Positions 220-54,984 of a DNA stretch of 64,000 bases are shown here, piece by piece (the stretch's first letter is position 1; each line of letters opens with the position of its first letter). The position numbers and the translations under genes were made by a program. Under the pieces are notes generated by a model that worked only from the letters and a program-made list of their open reading frames with translations, made no database searches and was not told the DNA's origin. The stretch spans positions 70,537,287 through 70,601,286 of the forward strand of contig CM026426.1 of the NCBI GenBank assembly GCA_014871385.1. The letters are read 5' to 3'. This stretch comes from Ceratodon purpureus (lineage: Eukaryota > Streptophyta > Bryopsida > Pseudoditrichales > Ditrichaceae).

Positions 220-345
220 CATGGTTGTCATAACAGACCAACCGTCTGTTAGTCCGTTAGTCCGTCATGGTGACGAGACACACCCAAATGTCTGTCCGAT
301 AAGGGCGTTGACCGGTTGACCCATGGTAAGGGTAAAACGTATTTA
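220..345 (+). repeat. hAT left ('a-type') terminal region
   Basis: It begins CATGGTTGTCATAAC and continues with blocks also found in the reverse complement of 22538-22663: TTAGTCCGTCATGGTGAC, then GTCCGATAAGGGCGTTGACC and CATGGTAAGG. The match covers the whole ~120 bp with scattered substitutions, so this is a conserved subterminal region that probably carries transposase-binding sites. Confidence 0.85.
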
Positions 346-353
346 CCCTGCGC

Positions 354-720
354 TCAATTAGTGCGGGCGCGTGTGCGGTTACAGCGAGTGCATGTGGGCG
401 CGAGCATCCGGGCGCGTGCGCTGTCACGGGCGCGTGCAGGAGTGCGGGAGAGCAAGGGTGCGAGCATCGTTTCGGGCGCGCGCGGGCGCGTACAAACGGG
501 CGCGAGCGTCGTAGCGGTCGCAATCTTGTTGACATTCGCGATCATAATTAACGAGCGCGATCATGTAGGCGCCAGCCTGGATCGGGCGCGATTGCTACGG
601 CAAATGCGCAAAGTATTGAGCGCGTGCGTTTGGGCGAGTGCGCTGCAGCGGGCGTGGGCGCGAGGGCGCAGGCGTTGCAGGTTAGAAGGGAAAGAGCAAT
701 ATTGGGCAACATCACAAGAG
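354..720. repeat. CpG-rich GGGCGCGAG-type array
   Basis: This is a degenerate array of words such as gggcgcg and gcgagcg, extremely rich in CpG and CGCG. It lies just inside the left terminus and downstream of the kinase gene. Open frames here are Arg/Ala-rich by-products. Similar arrays sit upstream of every TATA box in this element and inside the small element, so they are characteristic of the family. Their role (transposase binding, CpG-island promoter or both) is inferred. Confidence 0.75.
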
Positions 721-866
721 AGGCCATGCATTTCAGGAGAGGGCAATTGTGAAGTGCTATGTTTATTGAAAAGTATTGCAAAATTGTGGCTGTAAACCAC
801 CTACAAAGAATGTTCCTTCATACAACGAAGTAGGAATATCACATTGCTGTCACTACTTGCGTACTT

Positions 867-2420
867 CTAAATAGCATAGCGATAACAACATTCTGGGATT
901 TGGAAATTGTACAGAGGGGATGTTAGGGTAGCGTGGGCCAACTGCAAGGTGGAGCGGCTCTTGGGATCGGGATTTGCGAGCTCCTTCAACACCACTGCAA
1001 ATCTAGACTTTCCTGCTTCGTCCTTGAAAAGATCCGGGCCGTCCTCGTTATTCCAAATCATATTTGCTACCACTCCTACCGAGTACGCATCAGCAACCTG
1101 CATATATAGATGTCTCCTCCTTAGATTTTCGAATGAGGTCTCCGAATTTTGCTTACCATAAGTGTACCACAACTCCGGAGCTACAAAAAAACCACATTTG
1201 GTTTGGAGAGCCTTACGCGCCGCAGCAGTTGGATAACCATAATTTGAAGGAGTTGTCTCACAAGTGCAACTTGCAAGGCCCCAATCACATACTCCAATGT
1301 AAACTTGGTTCACTTTATCCTCTGGGAAGTGAAGCAAGACATTTCCCGGGGAGATGTCATTATGCAGCAAATACCCCTTATGGACCCGGTCCATAATACA
1401 GATTAATGCCCAATGGGTGCGGAAGGCATGAACACGATGGAGTGTTTCCCTGGGTTGATCCATAAGCTTCTCAATATTACGGTTCTCAATACCCTTTGAG
1501 ACTGTTGAATTTCGCTTGTGCAAAAAATTCTGGATACAATGCCCGTTCCACCAAAGCGTGTATGTTTCGATGGTCCAGTCATTGACTGCAAAGAACTTAA
1601 TAATGCCGGGATGGTCAATCCTGCAAACCATGGCTTCTATCCCAGTCTCGTGTCGGTACTTGGTGTCGTCCTCTGCCTTGGACATCTTCCCTGCAAAGAC
1701 ACAAGTCTCAGGTATGGTTTCCAGGCCAACAATACGTAATTTTTGGACTTTACCGTACCCGCCTTTAGTAGAGCCTGACAGCGGAACCACCTTAACCCCT
1801 CTTGGAACCGAGAGCATTGCTCCCCACAAGTATTTCTCCATTGCATTTTTGAGTCCAGCTTCATGCCATGGCCTCACCTTTGTCCTACTACTCAAGAATT
1901 TGCTGCACGCCATGTGGACAGAATCCAGCTTTCCTAACTCCCCTTTCTGCCCCTGCGTGTAGCCCTCCTTGGGCTTCTTGTGGACACACTCAAACACATG
2001 CACAATGTTCGTAGTGTTTGTTGTTATCTGTTGGTCCATCCACTTGCCGTAATGATAGTAAGCTGGACAATCATCATATTTCTCGGAATTAATCAATTTG
2101 CTCCACAAATAGAATTCCAAGTCATTCTTGAGTGCCGTAATTCCTGGCCCTCCCTTGTCAACATATGTTCGGATAAGCATCTCGCGTTCACGCAGTCGGT
2201 ACCACTCCACTGCCTGCTCCCTAATGAAATCCTGGTACCGAGGAGGTGGGTAGTCTGAGTCCTTCTCACTTGCTCGTTTCCGGTTCTTCTTTCCTGAGGA
2301 GCTCGATGATGAGTTTGAGCCTATTTGAGATGGTGCTGTGGAGGTTGCCACCACCTCTTTTCCAGGGGCATCAAGATCTACGTACGCGGGACGTTTTCCG
2401 GATCCACGAGAGAGCGACAT
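867..2420 (-). CDS. Protein kinase-like protein carried by the hAT element
   Basis: This is an uninterrupted 517-residue frame. The start MSLSRG at 2420 is chosen because the second copy begins with the matching MTLSRG; the frame stays open upstream to 2519. Residues 1-70 are a Ser/Lys-rich basic linker, followed by an unrecognised conserved region. A kinase fold starts with glycine loop GSTKGGYGKV (about 216-225) and AGK lysine (about 245). HNDISPGNVLL (about 353-363) replaces the HRD loop and keeps the catalytic Asp and Asn. DWG (379-381) replaces DFG, and APE is at about 414-416. All metal- and ATP-binding residues I can check are present, so activity is plausible despite HRD to HND and DFG to DWG. 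The substrate is unknown. It is the only clearly intact gene in the window, unlike the transposase beside it. Whether it is a captured host kinase or a long-standing passenger cannot be told from this sequence. Confidence 0.8.
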   Translation of the reverse strand: MSLSRGSGKRPAYVDLDAPGKEVVATSTAPSQIGSNSSSSSSGKKNRKRASEKDSDYPPPRYQDFIREQAVEWYRLREREMLIRTYVDKGGPGITALKNDLEFYLWSKLINSEKYDDCPAYYHYGKWMDQQITTNTTNIVHVFECVHKKPKEGYTQGQKGELGKLDSVHMACSKFLSSRTKVRPWHEAGLKNAMEKYLWGAMLSVPRGVKVVPLSGSTKGGYGKVQKLRIVGLETIPETCVFAGKMSKAEDDTKYRHETGIEAMVCRIDHPGIIKFFAVNDWTIETYTLWWNGHCIQNFLHKRNSTVSKGIENRNIEKLMDQPRETLHRVHAFRTHWALICIMDRVHKGYLLHNDISPGNVLLHFPEDKVNQVYIGVCDWGLASCTCETTPSNYGYPTAAARKALQTKCGFFVAPELWYTYGKQNSETSFENLRRRHLYMQVADAYSVGVVANMIWNNEDGPDLFKDEAGKSRFAVVLKELANPDPKSRSTLQLAHATLTSPLYNFQIPECCYRYAI

Positions 2421-2465
2421 ATTTGGAACAAAGAATTGTATGCTAAAAAATAAAATAAAATAACA

Positions 2466-2605
2466 TTCCCCCCCACCCGTTCTCATTGCTCCCACTTCCT
2501 GCAGTTCCAAGCAGAGCACGTGGAGTCATGAGCTAGGATAAGGAGCCACCTGGAAGAGAAGACTTTGATAAGTAGAAAATAAGGGTAAAGGGGAGCCTTT
2601 TATGC
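2466..2605 (-). promoter_or_regulatory. Promoter and leader of the kinase gene
   Basis: On the minus strand GCATAAAAGG (2596-2605) is a TATA box about 180 bp upstream of the ATG, directly downstream of the CpG-rich array at 2610-2815. The same arrangement precedes kinase copy 2, with GCATAAAAGG at 23185-23194. The leader word CATTCCCCCCACC is shared with the leader of the transposase gene. Confidence 0.65.
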
Positions 2606-2609
2606 TCCT

Positions 2610-2815
2610 CGCGGATGATCGCACCCGTAAGCGCGTACACGCGCACATATGGGGCCTGCACACGCGCCCGTCCTCAAGCCCGCGTGTGCGCGTCCGTGCC
2701 CGCGAACGCGCGCCTGTGCCCTTGTGCGCGCGCCCGTAACCCAGTACGCGCCGGATATCTCTACGTACCCGTCACCGTGCACGTGCCCGTCCCCGTGCAC
2801 GCACCCGGATATGCA
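2610..2815. repeat. CpG-rich array upstream of the kinase promoter
   Basis: A run of gcgcgcccg and cgtacacgcg words in C-rich orientation, immediately upstream of the kinase TATA box. It is related in composition and words to the arrays at 354, 6830, 12070 and 13115. Confidence 0.7.
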
Positions 2816-3026
2816 ACATTATATAAATTTATGACGAGGACATACTCGTACAATGAACAAAATACAAAAAAAATTCAATGGTAAATGGAAATATATTAAC
2901 CGCATTTCCGCACATAAATTAATATGGAGCACAACCATACAATTCTACTAAAGTAGATATACTAAACTTGGTTGTCTCTTAGTAAAAGTATAGGTCTACC
3001 TAATATGAAGGAACTAGAAAAAAAAT

Positions 3027-3030
<4 letters not shown>

Positions 3031-3070
<40 letters not shown>
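3031..3070 (+). repeat. 40-bp poly(A) tract
   Basis: Forty consecutive A lie between the upstream region of the kinase (conserved with copy 2 to at least about 3010) and the tail of the transposase gene. It marks a possible junction between the kinase unit and the rest of the element. The polarity does not fit a poly(A) tail of either minus-strand gene. Confidence 0.8.
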
Positions 3071-3072
<2 letters not shown>

Positions 3073-3911
3073 TAATTCTAACGTAGTATTCTTTTTGGCA
3101 TTTTAGCTGATTCATTTTATGGCTTAGATTTACTGCTAGAGCAATCGCCAAAAAAGTGACCACAGGATATTCTCCTCGTGTACTACGGGGAGGTTGTTTT
3201 TTCCAGGCCAAAGGGCGGCCCAATTCTTGCCGGATTATTACATCCTGGTCTGATGGCACGTCATCGCAATCCGGGTCTTCCTCCTTTGAGCGCTCGTTGT
3301 CACCTTCATCCTCAAGAGCAACGACCACTGGAGCTCGTACCTCTCCTTCAACCTCCGATGTAATATTGCGCACTTGAGTGGAAATTTCCCCCGTATCGCC
3401 ATCTCTTACCAGGCGCTTCATAGGCCTCTTCTTCCCTCCATTACAGATGGCTGTGATGCCATCCACACTCATTTCGCGTGTGCAAACAACCCCAGTTCCA
3501 GTAGATGGCCCACCTTCAGTGTCTATAGAATGGGAGTGGATCAGCTCCTGTTCTTTTGCTTGTCTTCCGTGTTCTCCCACTGGGTTCTTGTGACGGTGGT
3601 TTCCGAACAATCCTTTTTGTGGATTTCTTCACACCACGCTGGGCCACACTCTGTATGGCGTCGTCTATAGCTGGCGCTACGGCGTCTTAGTTGACGGTGG
3701 AGGCGCTGCGTTGACTACCACCAGCTTGATGGAGTGGAGGCCTCGTTGCTGCAGATGGTCTATGGAGTCTAGCTATTCTCGCACCCACCAAGACTGTGGG
3801 CCTCCGAGCCAAACCTTCATCCACATTTGTATCTGCTTTGATACCCGCTATCTTAGTGGGTTGTGATGGAGGTGTAGTCTGTGCGGGGATTGCGTGAACG
3901 GTCCTTCTCTC
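3071..3911 (-). pseudogene. Possible C-terminal extension of the hAT transposase, decayed
   Basis: Minus-strand frames continue past the acidic tail of the transposase with Lys/Arg- and Pro-rich, then Glu/Asp-rich sequence (for example REMSVDGITAICNGGKKRP). It ends in a short hydrophobic segment before the poly(A)/poly(T) tract. Stops and frame changes interrupt it. I see no recognisable domain. It could be part of the transposase or a separate degraded gene. Confidence 0.35.
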
Positions 3912-6501
3912 CTAAGCGGGAGGAATCTCTTGCGGCAAGCTTGAGTCTTCTTGTAGTGAACCTGCTCCCCAGTCACCCTCTTTACTAACGAGACCGGTCC
4001 AATGAGGTCCACATGCACCGTGTCCATCACTTCCATCACCCCCTTCGTCATTGTCGTCGTCATCATTGCCAACACGGTTATCGTTACCAAGATGGTCTTC
4101 ACTAGAGGAATCATCCGCAGCTCTGTCATTGTTATCGGGATTGATATGGACTGGAATAGCATCTCCTTGGTCACATGCGTCTCTTCCTTTTGCATTAGCC
4201 GCTTCATCAAAAACCACGAGTGTCGGTAATTCGTCTCCATGGATGTTCATGTCCGGGTTTTCTTGGTCATATTCTGGTTTATTATTGAAGTCATACGCAT
4301 CACCGTTATCACCGTGGTTGTTGCGGTCATGAGGATCGTTGCGATTAGCATCATCACCTACGTCGCCAATACCGTCATTGGGCCCATTCATGTCAACGTC
4401 ATCGCGATCATGTCCTTAGACATCATCATCATCATCATCATATGCGTGGTCATCCGGTATGCCCTGATCGTCCTCATCGTTGTCCTCTTTGCTTGTATCT
4501 CCCTCAGGATCTGACTCCTCTAACCATGCATTTTTCTCGTACCATTGGAGGGGTTTGGGCTTTTGTCGTTCTCGGAGGAGTCTGCTGTTCGTATAAATGT
4601 ACACCAAGGCCTCTGACTTCTCCACCCCCACGCCGTTGCGTACCTTGTTGTGGACAAACGAATACATGCTTCAATTCCGTTCACACGATGAAGCGGAGCA
4701 TACCTAAGATAAATTGCGCTTCGCAATGATTGCCAAGGGCCCGCCTCCAATCCTTTGCCACCATTGATGGGGTTCCAAGTTTGCTGCTGCAATATTGATG
4801 GTCACTTCAAGGCTGTAAGGGCCACATTCCTTGTCAAACAGGGTAATCACTGCCACGAGTTCAACAAATGGAATTTCCATTTGCCCACCAACGTGACCAA
4901 ACACCCGGTTGAGTGCCACCTTTGCTTCACCTATGGCTTGTAGGCCGCGATGTTTTTTGGTCGAAGGGTTCAATAGCGCCGCAGCATAACGACGATTGGT
5001 GTGCATCATGTCCCATCTATGGTTGAAATGTCCCTCCAGCCTTGCTACCATGTCCGGTGGGAAAAAGCAAGGGTCTCTTTGAAGACTGTACACGTGATCC
5101 TTTAGGTTGCTCATTGTAAACCATGCCTTGCCCATTGCTAGCTGGTTTCCATTGACCATTCTCAGAGCTACCGGGGCAGGTTTTACCATGTCCTTAAAGT
5201 TGCTACACTAATGCTAGAATCCATCATCACGGATTGTTTGACGTACTAGGCTTGTGCGTGCATGATTGCGCAACCCCTTGGCTTGGTTGAATAGACCGTC
5301 GACATACTCGAACCACTCCGGTGCCATGACCACTTGCTCCAAGGCAAATTTAACGTCCATAAGGCGGTCTATCATTAGATAATTACAAGCGAATCTGGTT
5401 TCAGCGGGAACCAGCGAGGACAACTTCAGTGAATGTCGGCGGAAAAGTGCCATAGGAACATGATGTTTCTTTATGTAATGACACACGTGTTTAGCTTTGG
5501 CGTCCCTTCCCCCGGTCCTCTAAGAGGAGATCTAGAATATGGGCACAGCATCCCTACTTGTACATATGGGGAAATTCCCTTGGGATATTATCCATGGCGC
5601 CAAGCATGTTGCTTGCATTGTCCTTAAAAATTTGGACAACATTTTGAGGGCCAATTTCTCGAATATAATTCTTCATCTCACCCGCAATGTATCCCTTTGA
5701 CTTTTTCTTGCCAGTCGTATCAACAGAACCAAGAAATACATTGCCTGCCGGACATACTAGCATGATATTCATCACTAGTCGACGATTCACATTATCCTAG
5801 CCATCTGAACAAATGGTAGCCCCGTATAACTCGGTTGACGTTTTCGTACGTTCATCAACCTTTGCCTTGATTTGCTTCTTTTTTTCCTTGATGTGCGTTG
5901 TTCGCATCACGTTATAAGAAGGGGGATTGTAGTCAAATCCGGCAGTCGACGTTGAGCTCACCGCCTTTATAAATGTTGGGTGCTTAACCACGTTGAATGC
6001 TACGTTGGATTCGTAAAAGAAGGATGCCCACAACATGTCCAGTTCCTTTCGCTTGAAGATCAGGAATGCTTCATTCATGTCCTGTTGCCGCAAGCTCCTT
6101 GTGGTATTCAAACCGGCCCTACAAGGCGCCGCACTACAATCAATTTTGTCCTCTTCGGTATCATTGTAGGAGGGTTCAGTTCCACCGTACAGAGTGCCGT
6201 GTGTGGAAGCACTAGTAAACGGACGTTGAACTGGTGCGGAGAATGTTGGCCTCATACCATCCATCTCCTCTGGTGTCAAGGGGCCGGGAACCATTCCACC
6301 GCAACATTGAAACTTCCTCTTCACTACGGTAGGTGCCATTTGGCAAATCCTCGAGGGATTAGGCTCGTCCCAATTGTAATGTTGAAAGCACCTAGCCTTC
6401 ACATACGAAAGGGTCTTTCTGCAATACAGACATTAGGCTTCCTTAATTGACAGTGACCCTTGCTTGAGCTTGACCCTAAACCATGGTGCCCACTCTCTCA
6501 T
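3912..6501 (-). pseudogene. hAT-family transposase, decayed
   Basis: The start ATG is at 6501. The N-terminus has a BED-like zinc finger (CLYC, later a His and Cys). A DUF659-type region follows (FFYESNVAFNVV, AGFDYNPPSYNVMR, then CSDG at the first catalytic Asp), with FKDNASNMLGA at the second. The hAT core continues with FIKxHH-like YIKKHHVPMALFR and PAETRF. The C-terminal dimerisation domain has WW at PHQWWQRIGGG, then a CERN motif, VHNKVRN and EALVYIYTNSRLL. The protein then runs into a ~200-residue Asp/Asn/Gly-rich acidic tail, unusual for the family. Frame 6501-5530 and frame 5486-3912 are each open apart from in-frame stops, with one single-base frameshift near 5490-5530. Stops at 5797, 5554, 5214, 5208, 4704 and 4668 all fall where Trp or Gln is expected, so this is a recent methylation-type decay of a complete gene. 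Confidence 0.85.
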
Positions 6502-6659
6502 ACCAAGTCTCCGGACGGCTGTAGCTGGTGCAACCGCTTCAACCGGTTCCATAGTGAATGATTAGGAAACACACCCCACAAATTGGACCTGTAGAACCTG
6601 AAGATTATTATCAGATATAATTTAGTGTGTCTGATAAATGCTTGACAAATTGATTTATG

Positions 6660-6806
6660 AAGAGAAGAATTTTTACATTCCCCCCACCTAAACCAAGTGA
6701 CTCCCCAAGCTACTAGTTTCAAGCAAGGAGCCCTCAAGGAGACCCAGGACATGAAACACGCAAGGAGGTAAGGTGGATGTCAAATAAAGGGAGCAATTTA
6801 TATACT
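6660..6806 (-). promoter_or_regulatory. Promoter and leader of the hAT transposase gene
   Basis: On the minus strand GTATATAAAT (6796-6806) is a good TATA box, downstream of the CpG-rich array starting at 6830. The leader contains CATTCCCCCCACC near 6675, shared with the kinase leader, and TTTCAAGCAAGGAGCC-like sequence that resembles the kinase leader. Confidence 0.6.
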
Positions 6807-6829
6807 GTAGCCCACTGTCAAGCGAGTGC

Positions 6830-7215
6830 TGTCCGGACGGGCGCGATCTAACAAGCGCGCGCGCACTGTGCAGATCGGACGCGCTTAGTAGCCAACGAGC
6901 AAGCGTAGGAGGGTGCTCGCGAGTGGAGGACCGTACGATGCATCGCGCGCAAGGGCAAACGGGCGCGCGCGAGAGCAAACGGGCTCACGCGAGTGCAGAC
7001 AGGCGAGAGCGCAAGCGTGCGCGAGCGCACGAGGGCGGGTGCACGCGTGCGCGATGCTTTGCGCGCGCGATCAACCATGCTTGCGCGATCAACCTTGCGC
7101 GCAAGCATAGTCGAAGCGAAGTGGGCGGGCGCGAGCGCGCAGAGGCTCACGAGTGCGGGCGCGTACGGGCGAGCGCGGACAGGCGTGCGAGATCGAACGA
7201 GGGCGTGCAATTCAG
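6830..7215. repeat. CpG-rich array upstream of the transposase promoter
   Basis: Dense gcgcgcgag, gggcgcg and gcgagcg words. Open frames in it on both strands are Arg/Ala/Ser-rich and not credible genes. It ends abruptly in an A-rich stretch at about 7230. Confidence 0.75.
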
Positions 7216-7520
7216 TGAGAAGAAATGATAATGAAAGGAAAAAAAAAAATTAAAAAATTAAAAAAACAAAAAATTTTGAACTCTATGAAGGTGAACATCT
7301 TTAAAAAATATTGAGCATCTTATTTAGATTTGAGGTTGTGACACATTTGAAGCCTGTTAACAACCCACTCCCTTCACACATGGCTAAGAACTGGGGCAAG
7401 TGGTCGACACGCTCTCTATGTGTCTGCCTTCTCAGTGGAAGGTAATTCCTTTTAAGTTAACGTGGGGCAGATTTAACTAAACCTATGGGATAAATTTTTG
7501 CAGTAACCGCGTTAATTCGG
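7216..7520. other. Spacer without gene
   Basis: A-rich low-complexity sequence (7230-7275) followed by about 200 bp of unremarkable unique sequence. I see no gene here. Confidence 0.6.
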
Positions 7521-7524
7521 TGGA

Positions 7525-7775
7525 AGAAGCACACGCGCGCATGCGGCTTTGTTGCAGACGGGCGCGAGCAGTTGGGCGAGCGCACGCTCAGGAGTGGACG
7601 GCGGGCGCGCGCGATCGGATGAGGGCGCGAGCGAGCATGGGCGGGTGCGCGTGCAATAAACCATGTGTGCGCGCGCGTAGTCGGTCCCAAGTGGGCAAAC
7701 GCGAGCGCGCCCAAGCGGGCGAATGCAAGCCTGGACGAGCGGGCGCGATCGAACGTGCGCGCGCAATCCAGTTAA
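7525..7775. repeat. CpG-rich array
   Basis: Same word family (gggcgcgagc, gcgcgcg) as the other arrays of the element, without an obvious TATA box next to it. Confidence 0.7.
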
Positions 7776-8209
7776 AAGCCCGTATACTGAAAGATAAAAA
7801 AATAAAATTAAGTAAAAAAGGGAGAGTAAGGACTAGAGTGAAAAATAAACGAATAGTATGGGAGATTGGTGGAACTACAAGTATATAACTAAACAAATCG
7901 AATAGGTATTCAAATGATAGGAGAATGTTAAAAAAAAAAAAAAAAAAACAAATTAAAGAGTGTAGGAGTATTAAATAAAATAAGATGGTATGGATGGGAG
8001 AGTGGTGGAACTAGAAGTATAAACAAATGAATTGAAAAGAGGATTATGTGGAGAAGTAAAGGGATAAGGAAAAACAAATGGAAGAGATAATCAAATCGAA
8101 GAAGCAAGGGATCAAGAGTCTAAATTGAAAAAGCAACAGATAATAATTAAGCATGACGGGTCAAGATTAGAAAGTGCTAGAAAATGAAGTGCTAGAATAC
8201 GACCGAGAA
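7776..8209. other. Purine-rich spacer
   Basis: A/G-rich low-complexity DNA with a short poly(A) run near 7929-7946 and repeated short phrases such as ggtggaactasaagtata (7869, 8005). No gene is visible. Confidence 0.55.
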
Positions 8210-8710
8210 CATACGGGCAAGTGCATACAGGGAGTGCATACGGGGAGTGCATACAGGCAAGCAAGTGCTTACGCGCGCGCGCAACGCCGAAGAGGCCAAA
8301 ACCATGCTGAGTTTTGGACAATGGAGGTTGCGCGTCGTTGCTCGCGCCCATGCGTCTACGGGCGCGATCAATTTGGGCGCCATCATATCGGGTGAGTGGA
8401 CCTCTGCGGAATTCAGAAACACTAACACCTTGGAATTTCCGCAGGCACAAGAGCGTGCGCGTGTGCTGCGGGCAAGAGCAGTCGGGCGTGTGCTACAGTA
8501 GGCGCGTGCAAATGACGAGATGCATTCCGATGGGGAGAAAAATTTCACTTCTCCGAAGGCAATGCGCGCGCCCGTTGATCGACGGGTGTGATCAGTTCAC
8601 GCGCGAGCGTAGGGGCCCGATTCGTTGTTCAGAACAAAGAGTTTTCGTCGAAAGTGCACGGGCTGGCGTGCCCGCGCGCGCGTGCATACAGGCGGGTGCA
8701 TGGTTTAAAT
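8210..8710. repeat. CpG-rich array with short direct repeats
   Basis: It opens with the near-repeats gtgcatacaggg / gtgcatacgggg / gtgcatacaggc (8220-8255) and continues with degenerate gggcgcg words interspersed with unique DNA. Open frames are composition artefacts. Confidence 0.6.
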
Positions 8711-9353
8711 CCATGCCTTCATTGAATTCAGAGTTTCACATCTAGAACTTGGAACAAATGATATATCATATTCCTGATTCAGAACTTGATGGTGTCGAGA
8801 ACTACCGGATCCGTCTCGAGTTTCATGTAGACATTCAATATCATATGTAAATGACAAATATAAACAGAATAAAATGGTACGTGAATTATTTTAAGTGTAG
8901 AATAAAGTGAGGATAGAAATAGTCTAGCACGTATACGGACTATCCGTGCACAACATTTTTGTGTGCACGAGAATTATGTAAACATTTATCATATGATGGA
9001 AGCGAGATGAGACAAGTGATGGAACGAACGACGTGTTTGGCAACCAAGAAAACAGAGGACCTATGCAAGGAGAATAATAGCGTCTTGGAAATCATGAACA
9101 AATCCAGAAAGAAAATTAACATCCATTGTTTTAATTTAAAAAGCATTAAACGTATCAATGTAACCCTAAACCAATCTAATTCCATATGCCTTCTACACGT
9201 ATTTATATTCGGATATCTTTTTACAAAAACGTAGTCTTCATTCATCGATCTCCACGACGTCACGTACAAAGGAACTCGTCTACCCTCCTTGTGTTGTGCA
9301 CGAGAGCTTCCCGGTGCACTACTTTCTGCCCCATCCCCAACAATGAGTTCCCG
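8711..9353. other. Spacer, no recognised gene
   Basis: Moderately AT-rich sequence. A 110-residue minus-strand frame (8940-9269) shows no recognisable motif. It lies just beyond the 3' end of the RING-type gene and may include its 3' untranslated region. Confidence 0.5.
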
Positions 9354-11780
9354 CTAAGCTGAACAAGTTCTCTTAGCTAGGCCATCTGCTCCAAGTATTG
9401 CTTCCATGAAGCTGGTCTCCCGCATTTGACGGAGCACTTCAAGGGTCTCCGGACTATGTTCTTTGCATAGGAAATCCTCGGCTACTTCCTCGATCTATCC
9501 ATTCGGATTCCACCATGTTCAAGGCACTAGCGATGTGGAGTTCCGTTTTGGTCATTTGATGCAGCTCCTTGTGCTGATCCGCAACTAATTTCCCTCTGGA
9601 ATTCCACTTAAACCCAAAAGGATGAGCGCCATATTGGAATGTCTTGTTTTCTTCATCCCAGTACCCACCAAGCGTTTGGTAAACAAAGCTCCTCCTTCCC
9701 TCGATTTTTTCTTCAGTCTCACAGCGTGTGAGCGTGTGGCAGATCCTTACAATCTCCTTAGGATTCGTGTCCCACCTCCACTGCGCGCTCATTTCATTCT
9801 TGTAGGTCGCGTGCTTTCCGATAAGCCAATTCCAAATCAAATCCTCACCCCACTTGTCCAGATATTCAGGAGTATTTTCCTCATTTTGCTCCCAATGAGG
9901 TGGCATCCAGGTCTCCAAGCCGAACTGCTCATAAAAACGCTTGTAGAAGGGGGACTTACATATTGCACACCACCGACGTATCATGGCATGGGAAATCAAG
10001 CACAGTGGATGATACATGCAATGACAGGATCCCAATGACCAGCCTCCTTCTGGACCGAATGGATTGGTACAAATGGGGCACTTGGTTCCATCCAACACAT
10101 ACTTTTGTGAATTGGGCTAGAGCAATCTTTGCTCTGCATTCTCAAGGACTTTCTCATTGAATGTTGCGGTCTTGTACTCCCACCCCAACTGCATCCAATC
10201 TTTATCCTTACTATTCATTGGTAAGTCGACAAGAAACATAACATCCTCATGTGCCCACGATGTAAGTCCGAATTCCCTCCTGGAGTTCGTCTTGAGGTAG
10301 TCATGGTCAATCTTTTGGAACTCATTGTAGATCTGTCTGTGACGGTCAACGTTCAGAATGCATGCAATCTTCTATTGGTAGTATTGTTTGCTCATCTGGA
10401 TCAGATACGTCTTGAGCAACTCATTGGTAGCTTGCAATTTGGAGGCAGTGGGTATAAAGGGGACCATAAGAGGAATCGCTGGCAGCGGAAATGACAAAGA
10501 ATCCTGAGTCACTTGAGAATCCACAAACAAGACTTGCTGCCCGGAAGGGTGCATCGATTGACTTGTTGATGCGAATGGGATCATTGGCCTACGAGGAACA
10601 CGAACGGGGGTATCTTCCAAGACACCGTGCGTGGCCGAATCAATGAAGGCATTCATTTGAGCCTCGTTCATTCCAGGGCTACCAGGGAGTGGAACGTGGC
10701 TTTCCTCAGGTACCCTAATTGGATTCCTCGCAGCTTTAAGTTGCTCAATCTCTTCATTCTACCTATGAATGACCTCATTCATCCTATCAGCTTCTTCCAC
10801 CATGTTCTGGATTGTCTTCTCCATCTAAACACTTATCGCATTTTTTCCGTTGAGCTGATTCATCAATGTGTCGCCTTGCTAGTCTTGGACATCATCCCAT
10901 GTTATTGTAGCCTCCAACTCAGTTGCAAACCTAGCGTCCTCATCTTCAATTACATTGCTCGGGCCCGCAATCTGTGGAATCAATACAAGAGGAGCTACAT
11001 CAACATTGCTTGGGCCCCCAACGATTGCTAGAGGAGGCTGATCAAAATATCCACCCCAATAGGATTTGCTGGCGGAGCACGATTCCTCGTCGACAAACAC
11101 GCAGCAAGATCAGGGTCCTTCTTTTTAATCCGTGTGATTCAAGCTTCAGCCGCCGCTCTTGTTTGCAACTGAGGGGGACGTGTTGGCGTACCATCAGAAT
11201 CAATATCTTCATCTGAAGAACTCCACCAAAGTGGCACTATTGCACCTCTTTTCTCGGGATCTTCCCAATATGGCCAGTCCACATTTGGAAATGTTAGAAC
11301 CCCTGTAGGTATAGCCATCTCTCGGAGACGCTGCCGGAGGCCAAGAGTCGACCGAATGGTCCTCCAATCCACCTCCCTATGAAGCGCGACCTCGGCATAT
11401 ACCATTCTACAAATAAAGAGAGGAATCTCGTTTCTCATGTTGATCTCCTCCCTGTATATAACCTGGTGCACCTCCAAACACCGTTGCCCGAACTGGCGGT
11501 TCTTGCAACATTACATGTTCGCCTTTTTTGTAGTACGATTGCGATTATGGCGATGCAACGGGAAATACTTCCCAATGTGGCACCATTCAATAAATTCCTC
11601 ACACGTAGCTAGAGTCCACGGTTGCGGTACGGCTTCCAACCCTCGAAATGTCAGCTTTGCAGGATTCGTTAGAACGTGAACCCTCTTACGTTGGTTGTTT
11701 CCATGCCTTTCCCGTCCTTCATCCTTTTCCCATTTCCTTTGTTCTCCCGCTGAGGGTGGATTCTGTCGTTGCTGTTCCAT
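9354..11780 (-). pseudogene. RING-type zinc-finger protein gene of the hAT element, decayed
   Basis: The start MEQQRQ is at 11780, about 275 bp downstream of a TATA box. The predicted protein is about 800 residues. The N-terminus is a basic region with CEEFIEWCHIGKYF, followed by a conserved domain (REEINMRNEIPLFIC, RSTLGLRQRLREMAIP), then a coiled coil (MEKTIQNMVEEADRM). The C-terminal third has a RING-like cluster CPIC, CHCMYHPLC, CAIC and a following W/Y-rich region. The stop is at 9354. A RING of this kind suggests E3 ubiquitin-ligase-like or protein-binding function, but the target is unknown. One frameshift lies near 11100-11140 and one near 9497. In-frame TAG stops at 10879, 10825, 10759 and 10117 all sit where Gln fits. 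Despite the decay, the reading frames remain well conserved. Confidence 0.75.
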
Positions 11781-11959
11781 CTTAGCATGAGGTAGATTGT
11801 TCTTCAAAGTCTTCCAAAAGCGCAAAATTAAAAGCCTACGATTACCCCAATACCACAATCACATTTACAAATTATAAACGTTTACAAGATTTTCAAATGT
11901 ACCACACAACCACCATATAATTTTCAAGAAAAAACGCGGACACGTATCAATGTGCTAGG

Positions 11960-12066
11960 ACCCACCTGAGTACCAAGCAATCACCTACCCGGAGGCTGTT
12001 GAAGGCAGGGTGCTCAAAGGGGGGGAGTGCAAAATGGGGGGGGGGGGGGATTGCCCTTTTATACTC
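11960..12066 (-). promoter_or_regulatory. Promoter of the RING-type gene
   Basis: On the minus strand GAGTATAAAAGG (12055-12066) is a consensus TATA box. The 100-bp leader is nearly duplicated at 13010-13112: caccaagcaatca-, gggctgttgaaggca- and ttttatactcac- all recur in order. It also contains a poly(G) run at about 12036-12049. Confidence 0.7.
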
Positions 12067-12069
12067 ACA

Positions 12070-12450
12070 GGCACCAGGGGACGAGCACGAGCATTTTGCT
12101 ACGGGCGCGAGGAAAGACCCTATGCGCGCGCACGAGCACTGTACGCACGGATTTGGTGGTGTATGCCTCCGCGCCTGCGCGGGTATCAACGAGTGAGAGC
12201 GAATACCATGGCAGGTATGTGACGGGCGCAAGCGTATTTTTATGCGCTCGCGTGGGTAGCGACCTGATCTTCATCGGGCGCGAGCGGGCTTCGTTCGGGT
12301 ATGGAAGGGGCGTGCGCGCGGTTATGGGTTGGGCGCAATTAGAGTTGTATAGGTGCGAGCGCAACCTTCGGGCGCGATCGCTGGATGGACAAGCGGAATT
12401 GCTGGATGGACGGGTATGAGCAAAGTTCTAGGACGGGCGCGCGCGTTATC
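12070..12450. repeat. CpG-rich array upstream of the RING-type gene
   Basis: Words gggcgcgagc and gcgcgcac recur, directly upstream (on the minus strand) of the TATA box at 12055. Confidence 0.7.
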
Positions 12451-12578
12451 AAAAACAGGCGACACCACAAACTAATACACCGTTAAAAATTAGAAGTAAA
12501 CAAAAAAGAACTTGCAAATATAGGGTAAAAAAAAAAAAAAAATTGTTTTGTAAATAAATCACTTCATTGTAATGTCAA

Positions 12579-13031
12579 TTACAGTGCCATGCACTCTAGG
12601 TAACGGTCCTCTAAGTCTTTCAAGTGCGTCTCAAAATGGTTCGTTTGAGCACTGGAGACAATATTGGGAACACAAAGTATTGCCATCTCTTTTTTCAGTT
12701 CTTTGATGAGATCGCCAATCTCACAATCAAGTTCTTTGACAGTTGTTTGGGTTGCCAACTACTCTTTAGTGGTTGGAGGCAGAGGCCGTCCATTCTTTGC
12801 GTATGCCACCAATTTGACTCGGCGAGAGATCCAATCCTTGAACAACTCGATCAGTTTCCGGAGACGCTTCAACATTGACCAAATAATTGTGTCCGTTCGC
12901 TGTGCAGTGCCTAGTGAAGTGGCACCATTTGTTAAACTCATGTACAACTTGATTTGTTGACAATTACATGCGTTGAAATTTATGTTGGACGGTACAGCGA
13001 TTGTTATGAAACCCACCGTAACACCAAGCAA
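12579..13031 (-). pseudogene. Small coiled-coil gene, fourth gene of the hAT element
   Basis: The minus-strand frame 13031-12579 encodes about 150 residues. It contains KRLRKLIELFKDWISRRV, then ELDCEIGDLIKELKKEM and THFETHLKDLEDRYLE, which look like a coiled coil. A single in-frame TAG at 12759-12761 sits where Gln fits. An overlapping frame (12766-12963) has VVHEFNKWCHF, resembling the N-terminal EEFIEWCHI of the RING-type gene, so the gene may be a shortened paralogue with a frameshift. It has its own TATA box at 13102. Function unknown. Confidence 0.5.
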
Positions 13032-13112
13032 TCAGCTAACCTCGGGCTGTTGAAGGCAAAATGCACAAAGTGGGGAGGTGCAAATCAGGGGAAGGGGTGG
13101 CATTTTATACTC
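13020..13112 (-). promoter_or_regulatory. Promoter of the small coiled-coil gene
   Basis: On the minus strand GAGTATAAAATGCC (about 13100-13112) is a TATA box. The region is a clear duplicate of the RING-gene leader at 11960-12066. Confidence 0.65.
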
Positions 13113-13114
13113 AC

Positions 13115-13440
13115 GGGGGGCGACAGTGTGGGCGCGCGCAGGCTGGTATTGTCGCGAGCAGATTGGTCCTACGCGCGCACGAGGTTCTCGTAGCCAATGT
13201 ACCTGGCGGATATAAGTACAAGCGCGCACGGGTCTCGGCGGTAGAGTTTCGGGCGAGAGCGTTATGTTACGGGCGCGGGCGACCCTGATCGCGCGAGAAC
13301 AAATGGGCGCGATCACTGCAGACGACGCGCGCGCGCGAGTACAGACAATAGGCGCGATCAACCCCAACTGATGGGCGCGAGGAGGCGCAAATACGCGCGC
13401 ACACGCAACGACGGGCGCCATCCCATGGTAAACAGTAGTA
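13115..13440. repeat. CpG-rich array next to the right hAT terminus
   Basis: Dense gggcgcg and gcgcgcgcg words between the coiled-coil promoter and the right terminal region. Open frames are Arg/Ala/Pro-rich artefacts. Confidence 0.7.
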
Positions 13441-13582
13441 AATTGTGAGGACAGTAATTTTACTCGCGCGGGGTAGCTCGTCCGATAAGCGTGTCCGATA
13501 ATCAGTTTAAAAATCGTCTGTCACGTCCGTCGTATGACAAGACGACAATTTTATGCCCCGTCCGTCCATTATGATAACCATG
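13436..13582 (-). repeat. hAT right ('b-type') terminal region
   Basis: Read inward from 13582 it begins CATGGTTATCATAATGGA and contains GCTTATCGGACGAGCT and CGCGCGAGTAAAATTAC. The same blocks occur in the same order from 20436 rightward in the smaller element. It shares only the terminal ~15 bp with the a-type end. Confidence 0.85.
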
Positions 13583-13590
13583 TTGCAAGG

Positions 13591-20435: not shown

Positions 20436-20754
20436 CAGAGTTGTTATAATAGATGGATGGGGCTTGGAATTGTCAGCTTGTCGCGTGACCGACGTGTTTT
20501 TACCAAACAATCGGACATCCTTATCGGACGAGCTCCCGCGCGCGAGTAAAATTACACACATCACAGTTTACTGCTATCTACCATGAGATGGCACCTGTCG
20601 CCGCGTCTGCTTGCGCGAGTAGGCACGCGCGCGCGAGCACTCAAGCGCTTGCAAATTTTTAAAAAAATAATAATAATAACAATTAAAAAATAATAATAAT
20701 AATATTTTTTTTTTTCCTTTGAGCCCTCGCACATGCGCCCGCATGCACGCATTT

Positions 20755-21060
20755 GAATTCTTGGGCCTGTTTGCACGCGCCCGAGAGCTTGCGCGAGACA
20801 TTCACAAAGAAGTTGTTCATTTCATTTTGGTGATAGTTCCTCCTTTGCGTGCGCCTGTCCACACGCGCCCGAGAGCTCGCGACGGACTTCCACCAAGAAG
20901 TTGTTCATTTCAATTTAATGCTAGCTCCTCCTTTGGGCATGTGCATGTAGGCATGCACACAGGAAAAATCAAGCACCTTAATGAAATGAACAACTTCCTG
21001 GTGGAGGTCGAGCGCGTGCCTGTGGGTATGCGTAGAAAAAACTAGCACAAAAATGAAATG
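20755..21060 (-). repeat. Subterminal tandem repeats of the small hAT (left arm)
   Basis: Units containing gaagttgttcatttcatttt, then gctagttcctcctttg-like and cgcgcccgagagct sequence, repeat with ~90-110-bp spacing. They are the reverse complement of the units at 21890-22540, so the element has long internal inverted repeats. Confidence 0.7.
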
Positions 21061-21889
21061 AAACCAGACTTCTAAAATTCATGTAGATATGTTCTTATAT
21101 GGTTTGAATCTTGATTTTCGTACTATTAAAATTATACTTGTTAAATATAGTTTTGTATTTTGTTCATGATTGCATTCATTACTTAAATATGTAAACAACT
21201 AATATTTCATGTTATTCTTGAATTTATTTACCATGTTTCATTCAATTGGCACATACAATATGTTTACATAAAAAATATAGAAAAAATAAAAATACATCAT
21301 GGAATGGGAATGATAAAATAAATAAATACATGATATTAGACTACGAATGGAAGAAAAGGAAAACGAGAAGATAGAATGGAATTATAATGAAGTCAAATGG
21401 GACGAGATGATAGAATGGAAGACAATTGGAAAAGTACATAAAAATAAAATATAGAATGGGAGACTAATTGAAGTCTAATAAAATAAATTAATACATCATC
21501 CGCTGGAAATAGAAGAAAAGGAAAACAAGAAGATAGAATGGATGAACAGAAAAATCAATAAATGAAAAGATAGAATGGGAGAAAAATGAACAAAGTCATG
21601 CATAAAAAGCCATCAAGTGTGATGAACAACATAGTCAACAATGGATTGACATTTACATAATTTTTGACTTAATCAATGCGAAGATAGGGGAAATGAATAC
21701 AAAGTGCACTAGTTTAAATAAAATTAAACTAACTCCAAAATATCCTACTAGTCTAATTATCTATGCCTTTTGCTACTATTTTGATTCCAATATCATATTA
21801 CAAAAATGTTTTCATTGGTCATTGATATCCATTACATCGCGTATTGAGCAGCTGCGCTTTTTGGTCTAGCAACAATTATTTGTGCATGA
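21061..21889. other. AT-rich filler inside the small hAT
   Basis: A-rich sequence with recurring phrases such as gaaaaggaaaacragaagatagaatgg (about 21353 and 21513) and gatagaatgg. No open frame of interest. Confidence 0.55.
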
Positions 21890-22200
21890 AAAATGCAATG
21901 AACAACTTCTTTGTGTAAGTCCAACGCGAGCTATCAGGCGCGTGTGGATGGGCGCGCACAAAGGAGAAGTTAGCACCAAATTCAATTGAACAACTTCTTA
22001 ATGGAAGTTCGGCGCAAGCTCTCGGGCCCGTGCGTATGGGCACGTGCGCACAGGCGCCCAAAAGTAGGAAGTAGCACCAAAATGAAATGAACAACAACTT
22101 GGTGCAAGTCTGGCACAAGCTATTGGGCGAGTGCGGACGGGCATGAGCACTTGGGCGCATACCGACGGGCAAGTGAAAAAAAAATAAAAAAAAAAAAATT

Positions 22201-22243
<43 letters not shown>

Positions 22244-22540
22244 GGGGGGGGATTTTTGTGCGTATGCGCGTCTGTTCGCGCGCAATGGAGGAACTAGCAC
22301 CAAAATAAAATGAATATCTTCTTGGTGGAAGTTTGATGCGAGCTCTCAAAGGCGTGCGGATGGGGCCATGGGCTTGTGCGGACGGGCGCGCACAAAGAAG
22401 GAAGTAGCCAGAAAATGAAATGAATAACAACTTGGTGGAAGTCCCGCGAGAGCTATTGAGCGAGTGCGGACAAGCGTGAGCACTCAGGCGCATGCAGACG
22501 GGCCCAAGTGCACGCGCGCGCAAAAGTCAGCACTAGATAA
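21890..22540 (+). repeat. Subterminal tandem repeats of the small hAT (right arm)
   Basis: About five units share atgaacaacttcttggtg, gaagtnnngcgcgagct, gcggacgggcgcg and gaagtagcaccaaa. They are interrupted by a 38-bp poly(T) plus poly(G) run (22205-22250). Open frames across them are repeat artefacts. Confidence 0.75.
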
Positions 22541-22663
22541 ATTTGTTTTATCCTTACCATGAGTCAACTGGTCAACGCCCTTATCGGACGGATGAGGGGA
22601 TGTATCATGTCACCATGACGGACTAATGGATTCACGGATGGTCTGTCAGTTATGACAACCCTG
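22538..22663 (-). repeat. a-type terminal region of the small hAT
   Basis: Reverse complement of this segment aligns with 220-345 nearly throughout, including GTCCGATAAGGGCGTTGACC. Confidence 0.8.
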
Positions 22664-22964
22664 GCTATAGAAGTATATGTAACCATAAAGTGGAACAGAA
22701 GAAAATTACAAAAATAAATAAATTAGTAGTGGATTTTTATATTTGTGTAAGATTTGACTATATAGATCATGGACTTGTACTTAAAACACAACTAAGTATG
22801 GTATTTCTGGCTCTAGAGCTTTGTATGGATGTACTCCATAAAGGTTTATGTGCGGAAACGCGATTAATATAATTCCATTTACCTTTTAAATATTTTGTAA
22901 TATGTGTATCATATGAGTGCCCCTTATTTACAAATTTTTGATTAGAACAAATTTTTGGATACTC

Positions 22965-23194
22965 GCGCGTGGTGACGGAGCACTTACGCGAGGGAGGCGT
23001 GGCACACGCGGGCACAAGGGCACACATGCAGGCACGGGTGCGTGCAATGGTGGGTCGCGCGCACACGCGTGGAAAGGGCGAGCCCCTCTTCACGGGCGCA
23101 CGTCCACCTGGTGATCGGGCGTGTGCCCACGCGGTGAACGGGCGCATGCACATGGTTTCAGGCGCAAGCCTCGGGCTAGGGGAGCATAAAAGGC
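22965..23194 (+). promoter_or_regulatory. CpG-rich array and TATA box of kinase copy 2
   Basis: A gggcgca/cacgcg array (22965-23170) is followed by GCATAAAAGG (23185-23194), about 150 bp before the ATG. Sequence from about 22755 to the ATG matches the inverted upstream region of the first kinase (about 3010 down to 2420). Confidence 0.65.
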
Positions 23195-23339
23195 TTCCTC
23201 TAATCCTTATTTTTTTACTTTGCAAAGTCACCTCTTCCAGGTGGCTCCTTGTCCTAGCTCGTGACTCAATGTGCTTTGCTTGGCACTACAGGAAGTGGTA
23301 GCAATTAGGTTGGGTGGAGGGAGTTTTTGTTTTGTTTGT

Positions 23340-24056
23340 GTTGTAATACACTATCAATCATGACGTTATCTCGGGGTTTAGGGAAACATCCTACTTATGC
23401 AGACCTCGATGCTCTAGGAGATGCGTTTCAGGCAATGTCTAAAACACCATCGCAAACTGGTTCCAACCCATCATTGAGCTCCTTAGGGAAGAAGAGCCGT
23501 AAAAGGGCAAGTGAACGGGATGATGACTACCTGCCTATTGCATACACCAACTTCATAAGGGAAAAGGCATTGGATATTTACCGTATTCGTTCCTGAGAGA
23601 TGTTGACACACAAGTATTTTACTGGAGACATCAATGGAGAAGCAAAATTAGAGGATGAGTTTTATCAAGTGTTTTCAAGGGCACTTGGGCAAAATGAAGT
23701 TTACAATGATTTAAATTCTACATACTTCCATTGTATGGAATGGCTGGACCAACAAGTAACAACGGATACTACAAACATCGTGCATATGTTTGAGTGTGTC
23801 GAAAGAAGCCAGAGGGTGACGACTGTTTGGAGGAGCAAAAAGAGATTATAATTAATCTGAGGTGGATCCAAGGCCAGTGTAGCAAGTTTTCAAGGTATAA
23901 GAGAAGGGTCAAGCCTTGGCATAGAGCCGCACTGAAGAGTGCTATAGAGAAACACATGTGAGGAACATTTGAAGCAGTTCCAAGAGGGATGAGAGTGCTT
24001 CCACTGTCAAGCTTTGCAAGAGGCGGATATGGTAAAGTACGGAAAGTACGTTGTTC
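23340..24056 (+). pseudogene. Truncated second copy of the kinase-like gene
   Basis: It starts MTLSRGLGKHPTYADLDA, parallel to MSLSRGSGKRPAYVDLDA of the first copy. It keeps the Ser/Lys linker, FIREKALDIYRIR, and WLDQQVTTDTTNIVHMFECV. A TGA at 23594 replaces Arg, and a frameshift near 23805 moves the rest to another frame (GQCSKFSRYKRRVKPWHRAALKS). A further TGA near 23957 sits where Trp fits. It breaks off just after the glycine loop (ARGGYGKVRKVR) at about 24056, where unrelated sequence begins, so the whole catalytic domain is gone. Confidence 0.8.
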
Positions 24057-24848
24057 GCGAGAATTAAGACACAGTGCTCCGTGAGGTGATGAATAATAAC
24101 TAGAGAGGGGGTGGTGAACTTAGTAGTGAAACTCACGGTATAGCGTCAATAGACCACAACACAGCCATGGGAACCAAGAGTCTGAGAGCAAGGAATTTGA
24201 ACCGTAAAATATTTAGGATGATCCAAGGAGAGCAAAGTGAACCGCCACATGAAGCAACGAGGGTTGGACCATAGCAAGACACCTTGCTTACTGTGACATG
24301 GTGCAAACAAGGAGGCTTTAAGTAGAGACGGGGACTTAGGTGGGTTCACAGTGAAAGGAGGTCAAATCATACATTCAGATACACACATAGCGAGTTTGAT
24401 GTTAAAGGGCATCACAAACAAGCAAGCAAGGTGAACAATAGAGCAATCAAGTACAAAAGGAGGTGGTGTATTATGTAAGCAAAACCAAGGTCGTCCAGGA
24501 GCACCAAGGCTTGGCGTACAAGGGGGTGACAAGCAGTCCAAGACTAAGACTTGATTCAAACCATAAACATGAGGAGTGTAAGTTCTATGCTGGCTACCTT
24601 GTTTATACTTTCTAATTCCGCTCATCTTGTTGTAACTACTAGGAGTCTACCGTCCAAGACTGGCCTTGTCTACCATGCTTAAAGCCGGGTAACATTTTTC
24701 CCTCTCTTGGAATGTGCGATTTGTCCCAGATTCTAGGTCAGCCACGCATTGCCTATACGTCGGTCTTCGATCAAGTCGGGTCTTCTCTCGAGGTAGCTGG
24801 ACGTGGCGTTGAGGAGGAGCTTGGTTTCCATATATGGCAGATATGGCT
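24057..24848. other. Unassigned insertion downstream of kinase copy 2
   Basis: Sequence unrelated to the kinase begins abruptly at about 24057, so this is probably part of another mobile element. A 87-residue minus-strand frame (24362-24625) shows no motif. I found no terminal repeat pairing. Confidence 0.4.
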
Positions 24849-31265: not shown

Positions 31266-31582
31266 ACTAAGAAAGGCCAAAACAAAGGACGACTGGCAAG
31301 AGGAAGAAAAAATTAGAAAGTCCTATGCTGGAAGCCTTGAAGGAAATACAACTTCGAGAAGAGCAGGAGAAGGTAGAGGCAGAGAAAGTCAAGGAGATTT
31401 TGAAAACAACAAAAAAGGAGGTAGAAGGCGAGGTATTGGATAATGAACGGGCAAGATTCCCAGTCTCGGACACCCTAGACTATAGCTCCAAAACCACACA
31501 GCAGGAATTGGGCGCAGAAGGGGAGACCAGTACAGAAGACCACGAGGAACAGTAGTATGCAACCCTGGTAGGGAGGAAGATT

Positions 31583-32373
31583 TTGGACAGTCCCATTACA
31601 GTCTCATTGGGACAGCTCCTGAAGATGGCCTTCAAATTGACAAAAGTTGTGAAGGCCTACGTGTTCTCGGAAATGATACAAGACCAGCACACTCAGCTAG
31701 AGCCAGCACCAAGCAAGAAACCAACAACTAGTCAACCAGGTAAGACTGATTTAATATTCAATCTGGCCATTGATGTTGACAGGGAACCGGCGGTGTTAAC
31801 TGTGCCGGTAGGCAATGGGACTTTGGAGAATGTCCTATTGGATGGAGGATCAGGTGTGAACCTAATAACTGAGGAGGAGCGTAAAAGACTGGGCCTCAAG
31901 AACCCACAACCTGCTCCATCCAGATTAGGAATGGCGGACCAGACAGTCGTTGAAATAACCCGGTGGGAATGATTCGTAATGTGAAAATTCACATCCATGG
32001 TATTCCTTACCTTATTACCTTGACTGTTATTAAAAATAAAGAAGTTAATGAAGCCTATAGTATGTTGCTAGGCAGTCCTTGGTTGATTGATGCTAAGGTA
32101 AACCACGACTGGGGTAACAACCTGGTCACTATCAGAGGTAATGGTACTCTAAAAACAATCTCGGTCAGTCAGCGAAAAGGGCCCAGGCCTAAGTTACCTA
32201 AAGTCCTAGTTTGCTATAATTTTATCGAAGGACTGACAAATGGAGACGAAGCCTTGTGGTTAGCTAGTGAACATGACTTACTCGCCATTGGAACAGTCAC
32301 TCTACCCCGAATGGAGCAGAATAAGGACCAGGACATCACTAAGGACCAAGACGAAACTAAAGACCAGGACTAG
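31583..32373 (+). pseudogene. Retrotransposon aspartic protease region
   Basis: NVLLDGGSGVNLI is the active-site DGG/DSG motif, and AYSMLLGSPWLIDAKV downstream is the conserved C-terminal flank of gypsy proteases. A frameshift near 31963 separates the two frames. In the family it matures Gag-Pol; here the break makes it inactive as annotated. The same segments occur in the element at 39932-40680. Confidence 0.75.
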
Positions 32374-40065: not shown

Positions 40066-40680
40066 TGAACAGCAAAGTATGGTAATCTTTGTTTTTGTCC
40101 GTCAATTCTTCGACAAGGGTGTAACAAACCAGCACTTCAGGCAGCTTTGGGGATGGCTGCATTTCTTGGTTAATGGAAATGGTCTTTACTGCACCAGACC
40201 CTCGAATGGTCACGAACTAGTCACTTTAGCATCTACCAGCCAAGGTCAGCCCAGCAGCATATTGTAAGCCTCATTTACCTCCTGGTTGCAAATAACAGTG
40301 AGACTAATGTTGTAAGGAATACCATGAATATGGATTCTTACATTCCAAATTAATCCAATTGGCTCGACTAATGCCTGATCAACCATGCGAAGCTGATAAG
40401 GGGCATAAGTATCAGTGGAGAAATCTAGTGAAATATGATTGGCGGTCGGCTCTGCAAGGTCAGCCGGTGGAAGTGGCTCAACCAAGTCGACAAACGCAGT
40501 CGGCTCTATAAGGTCAGCCGATTGAGGCGGCTCGACCGAGTCGACGTACGCAATCGGCTCTGCAAGGTCAGCTGGTTGAGGTGGCTCGACCAAGTGTACA
40601 GGCCCATTTAGCTCGCTGGCACGGTCCGGCAACACTTGAGCCTTCAGATACCGTGAAAGGTTAGGAGCCATTGCCAGCAA
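39932..40680 (-). pseudogene. Protease region of the pol-less element
   Basis: VRIHIHGIPYNISLTVI and EVNEAYNMLLG match the corresponding segment of the gypsy protease. PKLPEVLVCYTLVEEL parallels PKLPKVLVCYNFIEGL at about 32195. A frame change occurs near 40240. The N-terminal part contains three ~60-bp GTCGGCT-containing repeats (40440-40590). Confidence 0.65.
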
Positions 40681-54662: not shown

Positions 54663-54984
54663 CCAACTTTGCAAAACCCTAGAGACTTTGCACAACCTTT
54701 CCCTCACGCGAGGTGCAAGACGATGGTTATCTGTGGTCACCAGTCACCAATGCTAAGAGGATCCGTAGTTTCCGGTGATCACCAGTTGCGTCCATGAGTA
54801 ACCTGGATGGTAACCTCCGGTCAACATTTCATAAACCCTGGATGCGGTATTAAGCCGACACATCACTCACAAAGTTTTGTCCTTCTCTTAGCGCATTCAT
54901 GACATGTAAGTACTATAAAATGTTCTTTTAATTTGATCCCCAAATTCATTAATGATTCATAGCATCCTTTGTCCAGAAAAAAAT

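Follow-up and report, generated by a model that had tools for sequence, protein, structure and literature searches.

A decayed hAT transposon of Ceratodon purpureus that probably encoded a kinase and a RING-type protein beside its transposase

We analysed a 64-kb stretch of Ceratodon purpureus DNA (contig CM026426.1, hereafter called the window) and conclude that its positions 220-13582 very probably represent one inserted unit carrying four genes. With distinctly more reserve, we favour the interpretation that this unit of 13,363 bp descends from a large hAT transposon, autonomous in the past, and is now a degenerate copy. Its genes would have encoded a DUF659-type transposase, a protein kinase, a RING-type protein and a further small product. 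That these genes constitute a conserved set deserves less confidence than that they arrived as one unit. The copy is dead as an autonomous unit, because its transposase and RING genes carry stops and frameshifts. An initial annotation of this DNA had proposed one hAT element holding, besides its transposase, a kinase, a RING-type gene and a coiled-coil gene, the last being its label for a small fourth open reading frame (ORF). Apart from this label, the proposal is supported by the cognate ends, the target duplication and the gene homologies described below.

Ends of the unit and a second element

The boundaries had been described as terminal repeats, a target duplication and homology with a second element that is specific to each end. 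This description was borne out, and it is the end homology that delimits the unit. The second element (20436-22663, minus strand) is gene-poor and inverted, and is the one other element with cognate ends seen in the window; no recognisable target duplication was found at its ends. The left end of the unit (220-373, plus strand), composed of CATGGTTGTCATAA and a subterminal region common to the left end of the second element, matches that end with a score of 86.5 (shuffle maximum 14.0, n=500). The right end (13394-13582, minus strand), composed of a subterminal region common to the right end of the second element and the terminal repeat, yields a score of 87.0 (shuffle maximum 17.0, n=500), and the cross comparisons of left with right ends reach just 10-13. 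The left-end homology extends from 217-373 to 22666-22511 (78% over 157 bp) and the right-end homology is 74% over 185 bp. Because each end matches its own counterpart in the second element, positions 220 and 13582 form a cognate pair that encloses 13,363 bp.

The features at these positions are those expected of a hAT insertion. An 8-bp target-site duplication abuts the exact ends of the unit, with TAGCAAGG on the left (212-219) and TTGCAAGG on the right (13583-13590) matching at 7 of 8 positions. For a fixed pair of ends, the chance of such a match is 0.0004 with equal base frequencies, or 0.002 if bases are drawn from the AT-rich flank. The terminal inverted repeat, CATGGTTGTCATAA at 220-233 with its inverted partner CATGGTTATCATAA at 13569-13582, is 14 bp long with one mismatch (13 of 14 bases), and so is short as in other hAT elements, though its score does not rise above those of shuffled sequences. 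A scan of the window for this repeat with up to 3 mismatches returned five matches, where 7.3 are expected by chance.

A different way to account for the unit would be a nested or chance composite, in which an element bearing the kinase or the RING gene had inserted into a simpler hAT transposon. We regard this as unlikely. Such a history would fit the second kinase copy in the window (22773-24058, plus strand), a decayed remnant that comprises the upstream region and 5' part only and has other neighbours, being located just outside the left end of the second element. Homology between the two kinase copies stops near 2989, just short of the 3' end of the transposase gene. Against a composite, a narrow scan for a 10-base exact inverted repeat with an exact flanking repeat of at least 7 bases found no nested unit inside 220-13582, all four genes are on one strand, and a segment from the 3' end of the RING gene also resides within the second element (about 21690-21843, inverted relative to the ends; score 46, maximum 23.5 in 300 shuffles). 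A match in the second element to the 3' region of the transposase gene (42.5, shuffle maximum 19.5) was excluded as an A/T tract.

Genes within the unit and their relatives

The transposase gene (3170-6552, minus strand, 3' limit approximate) is interrupted by 10 in-frame stops and 2 frameshifts. Its DUF659 region is nonetheless recognised in the window itself by Pfam (E 3e-17), and among 118 database relatives the predicted protein is 75% identical to P0048. Both P0048 and P0050 carry PF04937 (DUF659) together with PF05699 (hAT dimerisation), and the window copy aligns to P0048 across both regions. Judged by these domains, the predicted transposase belongs to the hAT superfamily, with the dimerisation domain assigned through its relatives. 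Our description of the element as plant-type is based on the transposase family and on a relative from Physcomitrium patens (P0121).

The RING gene (9280-11780, minus strand, 3' limit approximate) would encode a protein of about 800 amino acids and has 8 in-frame stops and 2 frameshifts; by eye, the metal ligands are still encoded. Database relatives number 31, of which 19 cover at least 90% of the query, and P0017 is 65% identical over 98% of it. The zf-RING_2 model matches P0035 above its cut-off (4.5e-7), and P0029 also matches a RING model. When a structural model of P0017 was searched with Foldseek, most of the best matches were RING domains, none of them below E 0.001. The same model has long helices at 313-365 and 449-483, and its N-terminal region is mostly confident and largely helical. 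RING metal ligands and a RING fold are both represented in the family, with results mixed by member, and the product was probably an E3 ubiquitin ligase.

The kinase gene (867-2420, minus strand) is an open frame of 517 codons with HND, DWG and APEL motifs. It has 16 relatives in the protein database, 9 of which cover at least 90% of the query, and the best of these is P0001 (66% identity). In our alignment of kinase relatives (A1), columns K247, D357, N362 and D381 are invariant, and we take these to be the catalytic Lys, HxD, Asn and DxG positions of a protein kinase. The Pfam Pkinase model scores the window kinase at 27.0 bits, below its cut-off of 31.7, and scores P0001 at 40.7. Although the kinase structural model is of low confidence (mean predicted local distance difference test score 57), its Foldseek matches are PDB kinases or pseudokinases with probability 1.00, at query TM-scores of just 0.20-0.28. 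A 5'-untranslated-region intron, suggested by a GGTGGG motif, was considered and dropped, because the relative P0008 seems, by eye, to continue through the corresponding stretch.

The trees of all three genes have the same form, with the window copy located in an isolated, starred clade with one or two relatives. The partners are P0001 for the kinase, P0017 and P0023 for the RING protein, and P0048 and P0049 for the transposase, and all five come from the source 'ena'. Path lengths from the window transposase are 0.39 and 0.61 to its partners and then 1.39 to the next database row (65 of the 118 database matches were used in this tree). The corresponding values are 0.47, 0.96 and then 1.84 for the RING protein, and 0.56 and then 1.36 for the kinase, whose second copy in the window is 0.97 away. 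Parallel isolated clades of this kind are expected if the genes travel together. The second kinase copy is nearest to P0001 rather than to the other kinase of the window, in a tree where 29% of its columns are filled.

The origin of the database matches is also consistent with transposon genes. Entries from uniref/nr make up 0 of 47 matches for the kinase and RING proteins and 3 of 118 for the transposase, a scarcity that would be expected of transposon genes omitted from proteome annotation. Among viral contigs we found no relative of the kinase, the RING protein or the transposase, and among genome contigs there was no kinase relative. One transposase relative was present among the genome contigs, on a 3.6-kb contig titled as a Halorubrum metagenome-assembled genome (MAG), which is presumably a eukaryotic contaminant.

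It had been proposed that the kinase is intact while the transposase and RING genes are decayed, and that the kinase might therefore be useful to the host or simply younger. The first statement holds for the reading frame. The transposase and RING genes, taken as 5.9 kb, contain 22 frame disruptions and the 1.55-kb kinase gene contains none (binomial P 0.006). This difference, and the retention of the catalytic motifs, are what a kinase domesticated by the host or added recently should display. However, the protein itself has not been spared. A 5-residue in-frame deletion at about 1413 has removed residues (RAKLA in P0001) that each of the 12 relatives in A1 has, and the window kinase departs from the conserved state at 37 of 147 columns, compared with 20 for P0001. 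Its unique changes number 42, compared with 24 for P0001 (two-sided P 0.036, one of three tests, uncorrected). Thus, the suggestion of host use or youth is unsupported, and we consider domestication or recent addition very improbable.

In the two other tests, the window transposase has 49 unique changes and its nearest relative 17 (P 0.0001), and the window RING protein has 31 and its nearest relative 23 (P 0.34). The rows compared with the window copies in these unique and conserved-column counts, most of them long, were 10 of 15 for the kinase, 17 of 30 for the RING protein and 11 of 117 for the transposase. Because the read-throughs of the RING and transposase genes stop short of the C-terminus, their departed columns (30 of 152 and 60 of 239, respectively) are partly just missing ends, a caveat that does not affect the kinase. 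When the two kinase copies in the window are compared, they differ at 115 of 231 third codon positions and at 149 of 464 first and second positions (chi2 19.7, P 9e-6). Because they differ more at third positions, the kinase was formerly under coding selection, which speaks of past constraint and not of present use.

The stops themselves have an uneven composition. Between 3687 and 11513, TAG accounts for 12 of 18 in-frame stops in the RING and transposase genes (two of 20 rows in the stop table, at 9497 and 5493, were excluded as alignment ends), and five stops fall at near-invariant tryptophans, four of these being TAG. Recoding of stops was considered and rejected: the kinase gene is free of internal stops, sites with Gln, Glu and other residues in the relatives are also occupied by TAG, and the relatives carry ordinary residues at the stop positions. 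We also do not claim deamination of methylated CAG/CTG as the cause of decay, given that values for CWG depletion leave the kinase (1.14) and the RING gene (1.13) unseparated, with the transposase gene at 0.68.

Promoters, CpG arrays and the rest of the window

The smallest gene of the unit is a fourth ORF of 120 codons (12579-12941, minus strand) with one in-frame TAG and no Pfam match. Like the other three genes, it is on the minus strand and has a TATA box and a strong CpG run on its 5' side. These promoter regions, all on the minus strand, are situated at 2590-2830 for the kinase (TATA box at 2598-2604; a homologous region is present in the second kinase copy), 6797-7215 for the transposase, 12057-12470 for the RING gene and 13103-13420 for the fourth ORF. 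The initial annotation had each gene preceded by its own TATA box and CpG array, and this is true of all four. However, strong runs also occur at the left end (340-700), with no gene directly downstream, and at 7420-7870 and 8170-8770, a pair of arrays (7420-8770) with no recognisable gene downstream. Because they are present where no gene follows, the arrays are not gene-specific. Four weak runs (11-12 CpG per 150 bp) are located inside genes.

The promoters of the RING gene and the fourth ORF are clearly homologous (z 24.6), the promoter of the fourth ORF being a duplicate of that of the RING gene. A common promoter set for all four genes was considered and rejected, as homology is clear for this pair only.

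Many of the arrays keep their CpGs in a 2-bp register. Ten arrays were examined, and in five of them 69-95% of CpG pairs 10-60 bp apart are evenly spaced, values that none of 200 shuffles reached. The evenly spaced arrays are at 340-700, 6820-7215, 7520-7770, 20536-20960 and 21880-22540, and their sequences look different from one another. The register persists over tens of base pairs to 200 bp, and in the transposase array, where nearly all CpGs share one register, 95% of pairs 101-200 bp apart are evenly spaced (732 of 768). The excess is weaker in the kinase array (64%) and the right-end array (59%), and is absent from the RING array (46%), the array at 8200-8710 (47%) and the array of the second kinase copy (38%). 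For comparison, values of 45-59% were obtained for the three coding regions and for five further CpG-rich parts of the window. The register and the composition are consistent with a degenerate GC-dinucleotide tract, which might either have been selected (for example, for an unusual DNA structure or for protein binding) or be a by-product of 2-bp slippage.

Beyond the two elements, the window has several other features, although no Rfam family and no tRNA was detected. Two related retrotransposon remnants lie in opposite orientation at 29545-32370 and 40088-41963, the second with a Retrotrans_gag match above cut-off; a self-comparison of 13.6-54.9 kb (E 1e-8) found no long terminal repeats. Two adjoining ORFs at 36215-37615 have no significant Pfam match and, by eye, might be another transposase. 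An ORF at 46135-46971 has a SET domain above cut-off and a Pre-SET domain below cut-off. Finally, the region 54900-56300 contains more than 1 kb of a nearly purine-only microsatellite of GGA/GAA type (GC skew 0.979 and AT skew 1.0 at 55001-56000).

A possible role and known systems

If the unit is indeed a former autonomous hAT transposon, its transposase would have moved the entire unit by cut and paste, and short dependent derivatives, of which the second element would be an example, would have been mobilised by it as well. The kinase and the RING protein would then have acted for the element, most likely by countering host silencing or by tuning the stability or timing of the transposase, through or near the CpG arrays. 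An anti-silencing role is suggested by precedent, and control of the transposase or of cell-cycle timing is about as likely. A more ambitious possibility, which we offer only tentatively, is that a plant-lineage hAT clade carries a conserved set of a typical protein kinase, a RING E3 ligase and a small fourth protein as an anti-silencing self-defence module or a transposition switch. The 2-bp-phased CpG arrays would be the cis targets of these proteins, and non-autonomous members would keep the arrays and ends while borrowing the proteins.

Several observations weigh against a conserved set within one element, or against parts of the argument for it. By itself, the short inverted repeat does not reach significance (local score 13.0, shuffle maximum 15.5, n=500), and the linked set of four genes is known here from one full-length copy. 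The relatives of the kinase and the RING protein are located on short contigs, the longest of 1.1-5.8 kb, which leaves their linkage hypothetical. The RING match of the window itself is weak (Pfam E 0.016), and its closest RING relative, P0017, is matched by no Pfam model at E 0.01. Promoter pairs other than that of the RING gene and the fourth ORF share little or no sequence (z 0.4-5.4), and the action for the element that we propose for the kinase and RING proteins draws on fold and precedent. Furthermore, the second kinase copy falls beyond the end of the second element, and its surroundings in the window yielded neither a transposase nor a RING match.

This last finding would also suit passive cargo, that is, a kinase and a RING gene captured from the host or from another transposon and playing no role in transposition. 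Gene capture by transposons is common. Moreover, fungal TET/JBP genes have been judged to be passively transferred between transposons (PMC12730594). In contrast, the kinase and RING proteins belong to multi-member families with isolated clades like that of the transposase, their 47 matches include none from uniref/nr, and the kinase bears the mark of past coding constraint. Given this balance, we judge passive cargo to be rather unlikely, if somewhat less so than a composite, and we continue to favour a transposon that encoded its own kinase and RING protein.

Elements of the hAT superfamily are usually described as one-gene transposons, and the initial annotation knew of no counterpart to a hAT element with such cargo. 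That statement was too strong. TET/JBP genes are described in 11 lineages of DNA transposons, including the fungal hAT7, and alpha-kinase genes in IS3EU (PMC12730594). Among the results of searches in the open-licence subset of PMC, we noticed no hAT element that carries a kinase or a RING gene. This suggests that, although transposons with accessory genes are known, the combination of kinase and RING genes is new for hAT as far as those searches extend. If our interpretation is correct, it would suggest that hAT transposons interfere with phosphorylation and protein turnover in the host as well as with DNA methylation, and ubiquitin signalling could then be tested for a link with silencing.

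The closest precedent is hAT7 of Puccinia with its TET/JBP dioxygenase (PMC12730594), in which, as here, a hAT transposase and an accessory enzyme gene lie between the same ends. It differs in being fungal, in its 7-bp target duplication and in the accessory enzyme itself, and the excerpts of that report mention no kinase or RING gene for hAT. The IS3EU elements of rust fungi, with alpha-kinase and TET/JBP genes, likewise place a kinase gene beside the transposase of a DNA transposon. They belong, however, to another superfamily, make a 6-bp target duplication and carry an alpha-kinase, whereas the kinase here is of the typical eukaryotic kind. In Arabidopsis, VANDAL elements offer the example of a plant DNA transposon with an accessory protein: their VANC anti-silencing proteins target noncoding tandem repeats that diverge rapidly (PMC10398659), and these repeats are comparable to the CpG arrays. 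VANDAL elements are of a different superfamily, MuDR (PMC12730594). Plant hAT transposons of the DUF659 type, including that represented by P0121 of Physcomitrium patens, have their transposase family in common with the element described here.

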